From positions 1 to 32,904 of the forward strand of contig JAENZX010000037.1 in assembly GCA_016841045.1 (NCBI GenBank): DNA of 32,904 bases. The letters are read 5' to 3'. Source of the DNA: Thermincola carboxydiphila (GTDB lineage: Bacteria > Bacillota > Thermincolia > Thermincolales > UBA2595). Position numbers and translations under genes: made by a program. Shown here piece by piece: positions 3,492-8,252 of the stretch (positions within the stretch are counted from its first letter, which is position 1; each line of letters begins with the position of its first letter). The notes under the pieces are model-generated. The model was given only the letters and a program-made list of their open reading frames with translations, did not search any database and was not told the DNA's origin.

Positions 3492-5273
3492 TTATAATGA
3501 CCCCTTATCGGCGATGTTTTGCTTCATTCTTTTAAACAATAGACTCCATTCCTTAAAAAACAGCCCCGCCAAAACTTTAAAAAGCGAATAAGCATTTGAA
3601 AATCTATCTTTAATCGGCCATTTGAGTTCATCTTTTCCACAGATGGTAGCCTTGTTAACAGTATCAACTTTTGCACGCATTTGTCGAAGCTTTACCGTAC
3701 GCTCTGATTGAGGTAATTTCATAATTACATCTATTTCATGAATTATCGTGCGGGCCATTCTTATACGGAAGTCAATATCTGAGTACAGCTTGTTATCAAT
3801 TAGATTGTAGTCCTTCTTCAGCTTATTTAGACGAAGGGCAGCTTCATAAGTTGACTCTACTATTTCGTCCCTGCTCATAGAGTCGGTCTCATAACTGAGA
3901 ATATACTTCCAACTAGGCATTATAAGTGCCTGACGGTGATCTTCCAAAGTGTGGTAGAATTTCTTATAGCCGAATTTATCAGGATTCTCAAAGGCAGGGC
4001 AACCAGGGTCAAGGAATGGAGCAAGCGGGGCGATAAAAAAGCATAGCCGCTTTTCACCAGGGAATCTATCGAGAAGTTTTTGGCAATAGTTGACGGCGGA
4101 TACGGCATCATTGTAAGTTTGTTTTGGAATACCGGTCATGAAAAAAATATCTATTTTACGGCAGTGATGATTAAGGGCAGCTTCTATAGTTCTTTCGATT
4201 TTTTCATTGCTGACGGGGAACTTTCCATTAAATTTTCTAATGTGTTCAATATGTGACTCAAGAGTGATTTCCACACTGTATTTGGGAACAGCATCAGCCA
4301 ATTTTGCAAAAAAATCGTCATCCGCAGGGAAAAATAGTTCAAAAACTAATTCATTATCAACCTTCTCCTGTTTTAACAGAGATAGGAACTCTTCGGTAAA
4401 ATCACGCCCTGCCATACGAAAGTCGTTGAGTATAAAGATTGGGGCTCTGCCGATTTTGCGCAGGAATCGTATGTCTTCAATAAGCACTTTTGGCGAGCGA
4501 AAGGCCGGCTTATCTCTATTACAAATTTTTTTGTAAGCCGACTGAGAACCTCCACATATAGCACAGTTCTGCGTACAGCCTCTTGAAGTAAGTAAAGCTG
4601 TAACAGGATATTTTAACCATTCAAGATATGGGACTGTATTGTGTAGATTGGCGTATTTAAATACAGATCTGACAACATATTTATAGCTGGGGATAGATGC
4701 ATAATCCATATTGTCAGGAACGTGAGTTAAAGAGTTAACCACTATGGTGCCGTCAGGTTTTTTCCAGGTAAGATTGGGGATGTCTCTGACAGGCAGGCCA
4801 TTTTTTACAGCAGATAAAAGCTGTTTTACGATTTCCTCGGTAGAGTCGCCACGTACAACAAAATCAACGCTCGGGTAACTGATGAGTTCTTCATGAAAGT
4901 AAGAGGCCGATAAACCTCCGAAGACCACCGGGGTATACGGATGGTATTTCTTACATATTTTCGATACTTCAATACTTCCATGGGCATGAGGCAACCAGTG
5001 AAGGTCTATTGCAAACATTGTGGGGTTTATCCGTGAAATGACCTTTTCTACATCGTAGGCGGGATCTCTGAGCATCTGGTAAGCTAAATTTATTATCTGG
5101 ACGTTGAAACCACTCTGCTCCAGAATATCTGCGATACTGGTAATTCCAACCGGGTACATTTCAAATGTGGCAGAAGATGGAACTACGTCACTGATGGGTC
5201 CGAACATAGTCGTGTCTTTTCTAAAATCATAAACGCTTGGTGCATGCAAAAAGACAAGATCTTTTCTAAACAT
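3492..5273 (-). CDS. B12-binding-domain/radical SAM protein, paralog 1
   Basis: A 593-residue protein. The N-terminal ~190 residues look like the cobalamin-binding-type Rossmann domain common in this superfamily. The radical SAM 4Fe-4S motif CxxxCxxC is C233, C237, C240 (GCTQNCAICGG). After the SAM barrel comes a C-terminal helical region rich in charged residues (about 470-570). The architecture and the opening (DLVFLHAPSVYDFRKD) suggest the archaeal/bacterial Ta0216-type B12/radical SAM family (TIGR04190-like, from memory). Its reaction is unknown. The ATG follows GGCGGGG. The gene is a tandem paralog of its upstream neighbour: most aligned positions are identical through all domains. A terminator separates the two genes, so it may have its own promoter. 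Confidence 0.8.
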   Translation of the reverse strand: MFRKDLVFLHAPSVYDFRKDTTMFGPISDVVPSSATFEMYPVGITSIADILEQSGFNVQIINLAYQMLRDPAYDVEKVISRINPTMFAIDLHWLPHAHGSIEVSKICKKYHPYTPVVFGGLSASYFHEELISYPSVDFVVRGDSTEEIVKQLLSAVKNGLPVRDIPNLTWKKPDGTIVVNSLTHVPDNMDYASIPSYKYVVRSVFKYANLHNTVPYLEWLKYPVTALLTSRGCTQNCAICGGSQSAYKKICNRDKPAFRSPKVLIEDIRFLRKIGRAPIFILNDFRMAGRDFTEEFLSLLKQEKVDNELVFELFFPADDDFFAKLADAVPKYSVEITLESHIEHIRKFNGKFPVSNEKIERTIEAALNHHCRKIDIFFMTGIPKQTYNDAVSAVNYCQKLLDRFPGEKRLCFFIAPLAPFLDPGCPAFENPDKFGYKKFYHTLEDHRQALIMPSWKYILSYETDSMSRDEIVESTYEAALRLNKLKKDYNLIDNKLYSDIDFRIRMARTIIHEIDVIMKLPQSERTVKLRQMRAKVDTVNKATICGKDELKWPIKDRFSNAYSLFKVLAGLFFKEWSLLFKRMKQNIADKGSL

Positions 5274-5499: not shown

Positions 5500-5523
5500 G
5501 TAAGGCAAGATAACTTGCCTTAC
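5500..5523 (-). terminator. Terminator between the two radical SAM genes
   Basis: TAAGGCAAG, loop ATAA, CTTGCCTTA. Read on the minus strand it is followed by CTTTTTTA. Its first bases include the TAA stop of the upstream paralog. The rest of 5274-5499 shows no gene; a weak minus-strand promoter-like pair (TTTACT, 18 bp, TAGAAT) lies near 5340-5370. Confidence 0.75.
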
Positions 5524-7316
5524 TTCAACGAACGCATTTTTTGACGTGTAATCTTTAACCGCCTATACAGGAGTTTAATTTCTGTCGCGAACAGCTTCGC
5601 GAAGACAGACGATAGGGAAAAGATGCTGCCAAACCTTTCACTAATAGGCCATTTTAATTCATCTTTGCCGCAAATGGTATGTCTGTTAATCTGTTCTACT
5701 TTTACCTTAAGTTCCTTAAGTTCTTTTTGTTTTACAGTTTCATCCTGAATTTCAAGTATGCGGTCAATTTCATCTATAACTTGTTGTGCGCTTTTTATTC
5801 TGTATTCAATGTCTTTATATAGCTGCTCATCGATAAGGTTAAACTCATATTTAAGAGTGTTGAGCTTAAGGGCAGCATCATAGGTTGAACGAACTATTTC
5901 ATCTCTGGTCATACTGTCAGTTTCAAAACTGAGAATGTGTTTCCAGCTTGGCTGTGTTAAAGCACGGCGGTGATCCTCGAGAGTATGGCAAAACTTTTTA
6001 TAGCCATACTTTTCCGGAAACTCAAATGCTAGGCAGCCTGGATCAAGAAAAGGAGCAAGTGGGGCTATAAACAGTGCTAACCTTTTGTCACCATCAAACT
6101 TTTCAAGTAGATGACGGCAGTAATTAATACTGTCAACTGCCTGTTCATAAGTTTGTTTAGGGATACCGGTCATAAAGAAGATATCTATCTTTCTACAGCC
6201 GTATTTGAACGCTGACGCAATTGTGTTTTCAACCTGCTCATTAGTACACGCAAATTTGCCGTTCATACGGCGGATTGATTCGACATGGGTTTCAAGAGTC
6301 ATCTCAAGACTAAACTTAGGAACGGCATCCGCGATTTTGGCAAAATATGCATCATCTGCTTCCCAGAACAATTCAATTATAAGCTCGTTTTTAATGTTTT
6401 CCTTCTTTAAGAGTCTAAAAAATTCGTCGACGTAATCCTGACCTGCCTGGCGAATGTCATGCAGTACGAAAATAGGGGCACGCCCCAGCTTCTGAATAAG
6501 CCTGATATCTTCTACTAATGATTGAGGTGACCTGTAAGCAGGTTCATCTCTGTTGCAAACCTTCTTATATGCAAACTTAGAACCACCACAAATTGAACAG
6601 TTCTGAGTACATCCACGGGCCGTTAGTAATGCAGTAATGGGATATTTCAGCCAGTCAAGATACGGCATAGTGTTTTTTAAATTTGCGTATTTAAAGACTG
6701 ATCTAACAACATAGCTGTAACAGGGAACAGAAACATGGTCAATGTTTTCAGGCACATGGGTAAGCGGGTTTACAACGGGTGTTCCATCAGCTTTCTTCCA
6801 CGTAAGGTTAGGGATATCATGAAAGGGCAAATTATACTTAATAGCCCCCATCAATTGTAACATGGGCTCTTCGGTACTATCGCCCCTAACAACAAAATCT
6901 ACAAAAGGATAGGAAATCAGCTCTTCATGATAATAAGAAGATGATAGACCACCGAAAATTACAGGGATATCAGGGTGGTATTTTTTGCATATTTTAGCTA
7001 ATTCAATGCTTCCGTGAGCATGCGGCAGCCAATGGAGATCTATACCAAAGGCGGTTGGGTGCATTGATGCAATGACCTTTTCAGGGTCGTAATCTTTGTC
7101 TTTAAGCATTCTATAAGCAACATTAATAATCTGAACGTTAAAACCGTTTTGCTCCAGAGCTTCGGCAATACTTGTGATTCCTACGGGATACATTTCAAAG
7201 GTTGGTGAAGACGGGACCACATCACTAATGGGGCCGAACATTATTGTATCTTTTCGGAAATCGTAGACGCTGGGAGCGTGAAGGAATACTAAATCCTTTT
7301 TAAATACCTGCAGCAT
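5520..7316 (-). CDS. B12-binding-domain/radical SAM protein, paralog 2
   Basis: A 598-residue homolog of the downstream gene with the same order: cobalamin-binding-like N-terminal domain, radical SAM cluster motif C236, C240, C243 (GCTQNCSICGG), SAM barrel, and a charged helical C-terminus ending in a basic tail. The ATG follows AGGGAG with 5 bp spacing. It is transcribed away from ctsR, and its upstream region contains GGTCAAA heptads that could bind CtsR. The substrate is not known. The near-complete similarity of the two paralogs points to a local duplication followed by divergence, mainly in the C-terminal third. The family name (TIGR04190-like) is from memory and moderately sure. Confidence 0.8.
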   Translation of the reverse strand: MLQVFKKDLVFLHAPSVYDFRKDTIMFGPISDVVPSSPTFEMYPVGITSIAEALEQNGFNVQIINVAYRMLKDKDYDPEKVIASMHPTAFGIDLHWLPHAHGSIELAKICKKYHPDIPVIFGGLSSSYYHEELISYPFVDFVVRGDSTEEPMLQLMGAIKYNLPFHDIPNLTWKKADGTPVVNPLTHVPENIDHVSVPCYSYVVRSVFKYANLKNTMPYLDWLKYPITALLTARGCTQNCSICGGSKFAYKKVCNRDEPAYRSPQSLVEDIRLIQKLGRAPIFVLHDIRQAGQDYVDEFFRLLKKENIKNELIIELFWEADDAYFAKIADAVPKFSLEMTLETHVESIRRMNGKFACTNEQVENTIASAFKYGCRKIDIFFMTGIPKQTYEQAVDSINYCRHLLEKFDGDKRLALFIAPLAPFLDPGCLAFEFPEKYGYKKFCHTLEDHRRALTQPSWKHILSFETDSMTRDEIVRSTYDAALKLNTLKYEFNLIDEQLYKDIEYRIKSAQQVIDEIDRILEIQDETVKQKELKELKVKVEQINRHTICGKDELKWPISERFGSIFSLSSVFAKLFATEIKLLYRRLKITRQKMRSLK

Positions 7317-7435
7317 AAAACTCCCTCTTTTCCGTTAACAATATTTATGCCAGAATTCTCAAAAATGTTTTAAAATTCTCGGGCAAAGCGCATGCATGTA
7401 CATTTTACCACAGAAGCACTCTGTTTAGAAGTGAT

Positions 7436-7463
7436 ATTTTATACCAATAACGACAAAGGTCAA
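7436..7463 (-). promoter_or_regulatory. Possible radical SAM promoter overlapping a CtsR-type heptad
   Basis: On the minus strand, TTGACC (complement of 7458-7463), 16 bp, then TAAAAT (7436-7441). The -35 box is part of the heptad TTTGACC, the complement of GGTCAAA, so a CtsR-like repressor bound there would block the promoter. Confidence 0.45.
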
Positions 7464-7505
7464 ATAATGTTTAAAGGTCAAATTTAACCGAGAAATTATT
7501 TGACC
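7458..7505. promoter_or_regulatory. Cluster of three CtsR-type heptads
   Basis: GGTCAAA at 7458-7464 and 7476-7482, and the inverted TTTGACC at 7499-7505. The half-site sequence is the CtsR consensus heptad, but the spacing (11 bp and inverted) is not the canonical 3 bp. The rest of 7317-7634 is AT-rich and shows no gene. Confidence 0.5.
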
Positions 7506-7634
7506 AATAATAATTAATGTCACATAAACAATATAAATAAACACATAAACTGTGAAATTATACAATAAAACAATTTATTCTAATGTAACGGGCAAATACA
7601 ACTGTATATAAACATAAATGGTTAAAATAGGCAT

Positions 7635-7663
7635 TTGATTAGCGGGATAAAAAGGCTTATAAA
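7635..7663 (+). promoter_or_regulatory. Sigma-A promoter of the ctsR operon
   Basis: TTGATT (7635-7640), a 17-bp spacer and TATAAA (7658-7663). The predicted start point near 7670 abuts the CtsR operator. Confidence 0.75.
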
Positions 7664-7672
7664 TAAAATAAA

Positions 7673-7749: not shown

Positions 7750-8214
7750 ATGCCTAGCATTGTTGACATTATTGAGGAATATATTAAAGCCAGGCTAAAT
7801 CAAAGTGATGGAGGAATACTCTTATTTCGCCGGGGAGAATTGGCGGAAAGGTTCAGGTGTGTACCGTCACAAATTAATTACGTTTTAAGCACCAGGTTCA
7901 GCTTCAAGAGAGGTTACATTGTGGAAACCCGCCGAGGAGGAGGGGGATTTGTACGGATAATCAGGGTACCACTTCAAGAGGCTGAGGACTTACTACATAT
8001 AATCTATGACAAGGTACAGGACCAAATTAGTCTTTCTGACTCTATTAGTATTGTAAGACATCTTTATGATGAAAAATTAATTTCACGGCGTGAGGCGCAT
8101 CTTATGGAAATTGTTTTAGAAGCAGCAGTACCTGACAATAGTTTAGAATCGTGCAGAAAGAGGGCTGTATTACTCAAATCGATGTTAATGGTAGTGCTTA
8201 GACATCAAAAATAG
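7750..8214 (+). CDS. ctsR: Transcriptional repressor CtsR
   Basis: A 154-residue class III heat-shock repressor. The N-terminal part (SIVDIIEEYIKARL, then a winged helix-turn-helix with RFRCVPSQINYVLSTRF) binds DNA. The glycine-rich wing RRGGGGFVRI (about residues 60-69) is the heat-sensing element of the family, and its Arg is the residue targeted by McsB in Bacillus. The C-terminal domain dimerises. I chose the ATG at 7750 because AGGAG lies 8 bp upstream and the protein then begins MPSIVDI, like other CtsR; an upstream in-frame ATG at 7711 lacks this. The gene sits directly downstream of its own operator and leads the clp operon. Confidence 0.95.
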   Translation: MPSIVDIIEEYIKARLNQSDGGILLFRRGELAERFRCVPSQINYVLSTRFSFKRGYIVETRRGGGGFVRIIRVPLQEAEDLLHIIYDKVQDQISLSDSISIVRHLYDEKLISRREAHLMEIVLEAAVPDNSLESCRKRAVLLKSMLMVVLRHQK

Positions 8215-8252
8215 TTTTATATCCGCCGGGAGCATTAACGGAGGTGAGAGCG

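Follow-up and report, generated by a model that had tools for sequence, protein, structure and literature searches.

A conserved, probable CtsR-type operator array between ctsR and a divergent radical SAM gene pair in the Thermincola family, weakened in Thermincola carboxydiphila

Known CtsR dimers bind direct heptads that lie within the core promoter (PMC12634643). In the 4.16-Mb genome of Thermincola carboxydiphila, three exact copies of the heptad GGTCAAA lie within 48 bp of the intergenic DNA that separates ctsR from a divergently transcribed pair of radical SAM genes (rSAM1 and rSAM2), which raises the question of whether these enzymes have come under the control of CtsR. A preliminary description of the window (the whole stretch of 32,904 nucleotides from contig JAENZX010000037.1) had reported two direct copies and one inverted copy of the heptad upstream of the rSAM pair, a spacing that departs from the canonical one, and a separate canonical CtsR box serving ctsR, and all three observations were borne out by the present analysis. 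The positions of these elements are collected in Table 1.

Table 1. Positions of genes, heptads, and predicted promoter elements around the rSAM1//ctsR intergenic region of the window.
Feature	Positions	Strand	Remarks
rSAM2, tandem paralogue of rSAM1	3492..5273	-	TIGR04190; 68% identical to rSAM1
rSAM1, B12-binding radical SAM protein	5520..7316	-	TIGR04190
P2, invariant extended -10, TGTGGTAAAATGTA	7399..7412	-	Hexamer TAAAAT 7407..7402; identical in 7/7 genomes
P2, weak -35, TTCTAA	7425..7430	-	17 bp from P2 -10
P1, -10, TAAAAT	7436..7441	-	Genome-specific candidate promoter; relatives show GAAGAAAAAT or similar here
P1, -35, TTGACC within half-site 3	7463..7458	-	16 bp to TAAAAT 7441..7436
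Half-site 3, GGTCAAA, closest to rSAM pair	7458..7464	+	GACC core shared by all seven family genomes; the conserved -10 is 54-57 bp away
Half-site 2 (decayed), TGTTTAA	7468..7474	+	GGTCTAA or GGTCCAA in six relatives, box with half-site 3 there
Half-site 1, GGTCAAA	7476..7482	+	18 bp from half-site 3; xxTGACC in 6/7, TTTTACC in G001
Inverted half-site, GGTCAAA	7499..7505	-	Reads TTGGTCA throughout the seven family genomes; half-site 1 is 28-29 bp away
Canonical CtsR box of ctsR operon, GGTCAAATAAGGTCAAA	7673..7689	+	Sole perfect RGTCAAANNNRGTCAAA match in 4.16-Mb genome
ctsR	7750..8214	+	Pfam CtsR E=4.5e-31 plus CtsR_C; PDB 3h0d E=5.3e-36

Both radical SAM proteins score far above the curated TIGR04190 (B12_SAM_Ta0216) cut-off of 500 bits (746 and 768 bits), and their architecture combines a B12-binding domain with a radical SAM domain whose CxxxCxxC cysteines (C235, C239, and C242) are invariant. 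The AlphaFold model of rSAM1 (pLDDT 84) folds like the cobalamin-dependent radical SAM enzymes, its nearest matches being TsrM (E = 4.9e-16, TM 0.54), MgmA, TokK, AprD4, and OxsB, whereas sequence identity to these enzymes is 11–15%, and their substrates are not transferable. A role resembling that of the hopanoid methylases was set aside, as it derives from distant profile similarity only. An Rfam search of the window returned 5S rRNA and tRNAs only, with no riboswitch in the rSAM leader. On the other side of the intergenic region, the CtsR protein contains both the HTH and the C-terminal dimerisation domains, and its DNA-binding part is nearly invariant among nine orthologues, in which most of the HTH and the RRGGGG wing are unchanged. 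The plus-strand genes that follow ctsR are, as we read their open reading frames, presumably dnaJ, clpB, mcsA, mcsB, clpC, radA, and disA.

The clustering of the heptads is not readily produced by chance; when the 330-bp stretch (ctsR box excluded) was subjected to 20,000 dinucleotide shuffles, three heptads within 50 bp never arose and two arose in 11. The canonical arrangement of two direct A/GGTCAAA heptads with a 3-bp spacer, giving a period of 10 bp, is not present in this array of the window. Instead, 18 bp separate the starts of its direct heptads, and the partner at 10 bp is TGTTTAA, with three mismatches, so that the box is broken. This odd spacing arises because half-site 2, which carries two core substitutions, has decayed and left half-sites 1 and 3, and through the same loss the array is weaker in the window than in its relatives.

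The divergent rSAM // ctsR order is kept in nine genomes, namely the window genome, G001–G004, G007, G008, G009, and G025. The window genome together with G001–G004, G007, and G008 makes up its family, which includes Thermincola and is a small sample of seven genomes in five genera; G009, with the same gene order, is more distant, and G025 belongs to another family. Among the TIGR04190 loci examined, tandem pairs beside ctsR are seen in the window's family and in G009 only, and G025 has one such gene next to ctsR, whereas the other loci lie away from ctsR. Downstream of ctsR, G002 has dnaK between ctsR and dnaJ (L048:7025–8863), which is missing from the window (8215–8243); in G001 and G003, a gap of similar size occupies this place, and clpB directly follows ctsR in G004, G007, and G008.

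Conservation of the heptads in relatives with the same neighbourhood, which had been proposed as a check, is seen throughout the family, in which all seven genomes share one layout. Read towards rSAM1, this consists of TTGGTCA, 28–29 bp, half-site 1, 8 bp, half-site 2 (TTAGACC or TTGGACC in six relatives, TTAAACA in the window), 10 bp, and half-site 3 (xxTGACC), followed by a block, GGAAGAAAAATTCTCTTCTAA, and by TGTGGTAAAATGTA at 54–57 bp. In the six relatives, half-site 2 together with half-site 3 makes up a box of CtsR type, AGGTCARNNNAGGTCYAA, with the 10-bp period and one or two mismatches to GGTCAAANNNGGTCAAA where scored. In the relatives, the GGAAGAAAAATTCTCTTCTAA block is a further conserved element of the interval from array to rSAM -10; in the window (7425–7446, minus strand), it is altered to GGTATAAAATATCACTTCTAA. 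Despite the common gene order, the array is absent from G009 and G025, and it was not found outside the Thermincola family. The 86-bp segment from the array to the promoter is 70–97% identical between family genomes, whereas the fourfold-degenerate sites of rSAM1 are 26–40% identical between genera, which is near random, and over both rSAM1 and ctsR the range is about 15–45%, i.e., saturated. Conservation of the segment at such divergence therefore indicates strong purifying selection.

The distance from the rSAM-side box to the ctsR box is 227–231 bp in the six relatives, which represent four genera, and 215 bp in the window, while the sequence between the boxes shows an alignment identity of 47–64% and the length of the rSAM leader ranges between 78 and 117 nt. 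This inter-box stretch (7506–7672 in the window; L044–L049) is near neutral in its divergence, yet its length is kept in six genomes. In a comparison of G004 with G007 (L045 and L047), the rSAM leaders are 99% identical, the inter-box spacers 57%, and the rSAM1 fourfold sites 78%; the leader may be constrained or may have been exchanged, and the spacer diverges fast.

The likeness of the rSAM-side box to genuine CtsR sites was assessed with a position-specific scoring matrix (PSSM) built from the ctsR-side boxes only, the site of the tested genome being left out. In each of the seven family genomes, the top-scoring site was the rSAM-side box, with scores of 16.0–23.6 bits in the six relatives, reached by 0–1 of 1000 shuffles, and of 12.9 bits in the window, where the scored position includes the decayed half-site 2 and 4 of 1000 shuffles reached the same score. 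Whole genomes were searched with the pattern AGGTCARNNNAGGTCNRA. In five of the six relatives, it matched the ctsR box and the rSAM box only, in G001 these two and one odd extra place, and in the window genome the ctsR box alone; in G009, it lies upstream of two genes (L121 and L129) that we take, from their protein sequences judged by eye, to be dnaK and an hsp20 gene. Across the phylum sample, the pattern was found in 92 of 299 genomes, mostly once, and three further places that were read belong to hsp20, ctsR, and dnaK. Among genomes that contain a box, 6 of the 7 from the family carry two less than 400 bp apart, against 2 of the other 85 (Fisher p ~3e-7, which is only a guide, because related genomes are not independent). 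As AGGTCARNNNAGGTCNRA was derived from these sites, its matches are not an independent discovery, and the leave-one-out PSSM and the rSAM loci without ctsR are the fairer tests. The latter (n = 51), which include loci from Carboxydocella, Mesobacillus, Neobacillus, archaea, KSB1, and others, have no box in the 400 bp upstream, even with two mismatches allowed. Allowing one mismatch in AGGTCARNNNAGGTCNRA added matches at about the control level, and in the window genome, one-mismatch matches were as common as those of a reversed-pattern control, and other sites there were rejected.

The promoter of the rSAM pair had been drawn at TTGACC-16-TAAAAT, with the -35 box inside a heptad. This sequence (P1) is indeed present on the minus strand, and it is top-scoring in the window genome alone; the relatives have no good counterpart, and P1 was thus rejected as the ancestral rSAM promoter. 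In all six relatives, the best-scoring promoter is TTCTAA, or a similar word, 17 bp from TAAAAT with a TG motif, and its -10 is the TGTGGTAAAATGTA element. By its conservation, this promoter (P2), which sits 34 bp downstream of P1 in the window, is predicted to be the ancestral one, and P1 may be an added promoter under the direct cover of CtsR in the window genome. Half-site 3 overlaps the -35 of P1, and the -10 of P2 lies 54–57 bp away from it (54 bp in the window). The possibility that the array serves a distal promoter in the ctsR direction was also rejected, since no conserved -10 or -35 is seen that way in the alignment, as judged by eye.

Taken together, the heptads at 7458–7505 are probably, though far from certainly, a conserved CtsR operator array of the divergent rSAM1–rSAM2 promoter that has partly decayed in the window genome. 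Binding of CtsR to the array in the family is likely on these sequence grounds, and regulation of the rSAM pair in the family is somewhat more probable than its absence; in the window genome, the case for such control is weaker than in the family, but it is still likely. The suggestion that the rSAM genes are under CtsR or heat-shock control thus gains from an array conserved in 7 of 7 family genomes, six of which have a CtsR-type box, and loses with the promoter as drawn, with the weaker array here, and with its absence from G009 and G025. In unstressed cells, CtsR from the neighbouring gene would bind both the array and its own operator and would lower the expression of both divergent units; by analogy, it should repress rSAM1–rSAM2. 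Heat, or another cause of CtsR inactivation, would release both units, so that the rSAM pair would be co-induced with the Clp system. In the window genome, half-site 2 has decayed and a -10 has arisen 16 bp from half-site 3, and the targets of CtsR would be two perfect heptads that stand apart, its effect coming in part from occupation of the P1 -35. Simple occlusion cannot explain control of P2, because 54–57 bp separate it from the array, whereas the known operators of CtsR are situated inside the core promoter. P2 might instead be controlled by contact with the ctsR operator, by disturbance of the contacts that RNA polymerase makes upstream, or through activation. The constant 227–231 bp, in diverged sequence and beside a leader of variable length, hints at operator–operator contact, and the 215 bp of the window argues against a strict inter-box distance rule. 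It is thus only a tentative proposal, and one that we hold more doubtful than the operator itself, that two operators about 229 bp apart jointly regulate the Clp operon and the rSAM pair in the Thermincola family, either from upstream or via operator contact.

The same spacing could mean that the array is an auxiliary operator of ctsR, with CtsR dimers on both boxes, about 229 bp apart, cooperating, for example by looping, to tighten autorepression, and with any effect on the rSAM genes a by-product or absent. The retention of 227–231 bp in six genomes of four genera, despite 47–64% identity and a leader of 78–117 nt, speaks for this arrangement; however, the window has a distance of 215 bp while keeping that to the rSAM -10 (54 bp), conservation extends over the whole segment up to that -10, and elsewhere in the phylum boxes seldom come in pairs (2 of 85 box-containing genomes). 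CtsR is not known to loop DNA, and we regard an auxiliary role as rather unlikely. A different regulator of the rSAM pair might instead read the TGACC repeats, as an 8 + 10 bp spacing combined with a remote inverted half-site departs from the usual design of CtsR operators and the array and the -10 have an extra conserved block, GGAAGAAAAATTCTCTTCTAA, between them. The box nevertheless agrees with those on the ctsR side in the same genomes, adjoins ctsR, and never occurs at the examined rSAM loci away from ctsR, which makes such a regulator more unlikely again.

For the window genome in particular, the heptads could be non-functional remnants of an ancestral CtsR site that lost half-site 2, the rSAM genes now being expressed from P2 without CtsR. 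The two core substitutions in half-site 2 and the shifted box-to-box spacing would fit such a loss, but half-sites 1 and 3 and the inverted half-site are perfect heptads, better than those of most relatives, which is unexpected under decay, and we consider this outcome improbable. Chance similarity in AT-rich intergenic DNA, to which the double nature of TTGACC as a -35-like word might lend itself, is scarcely credible against 0 of 20,000 shuffles and an aligned conservation at saturated divergence. On comparative sequence evidence, the motif match is best described as a conserved and specific operator array of CtsR type that belongs to a single bacterial family and is weakened in the window genome.

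The array shares several features with the class III regulon of Bacillus subtilis (the ctsR operon, clpP, and clpE), including the A/GGTCAAA heptad, a CtsR with a conserved HTH and RRGGGG wing, a canonical box at ctsR, and multiple operators, as at clpE, where five CtsR binding sites accompany two sigma-A promoters (PMC12634643). In contrast to that regulon, the target here is a cobalamin-dependent radical SAM pair and not a Clp or chaperone gene, the array sits upstream of, and not inside, the conserved promoter, and the half-sites are spaced by 8 + 10 bp with an additional inverted one, the 10-bp pair being broken in the window. In clostridia, the CtsR regulon of C. acetobutylicum covers the ctsR operon, hsp18, sms-disA, and the hrcA operon, with no radical SAM target described (PMC3828012). 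Boxes before the ctsR operon are common to these regulons and the present locus, and hsp20 and dnaK boxes occur in other genomes examined here, whereas the strict pattern in the Thermincola family finds essentially only the ctsR/rSAM divergon. A study of C. thermocellum lists a radical SAM gene whose level falls under heat stress and draws no tie to CtsR, and the consulted passages of a second paper mentioning both subjects give no gene of this kind among the targets of CtsR.

The enzymes of TIGR04190 seem to have gone unstudied, and no paper in the literature searched carries the names TIGR04190 or Ta0216. A conserved heat-shock operator over its genes would provide a first functional clue, linking these enzymes to protein or envelope stress. 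If the assignment is true, the CtsR regulon would extend beyond chaperones and proteases, and CtsR sites could stand ahead of a promoter while keeping a constant distance to another operator. The radical SAM enzymes of the Thermincola family are, judging from the conserved array, probably wired into the heat-shock circuit, and an enzyme outside protein quality control would thereby be tied to CtsR in a conserved way.
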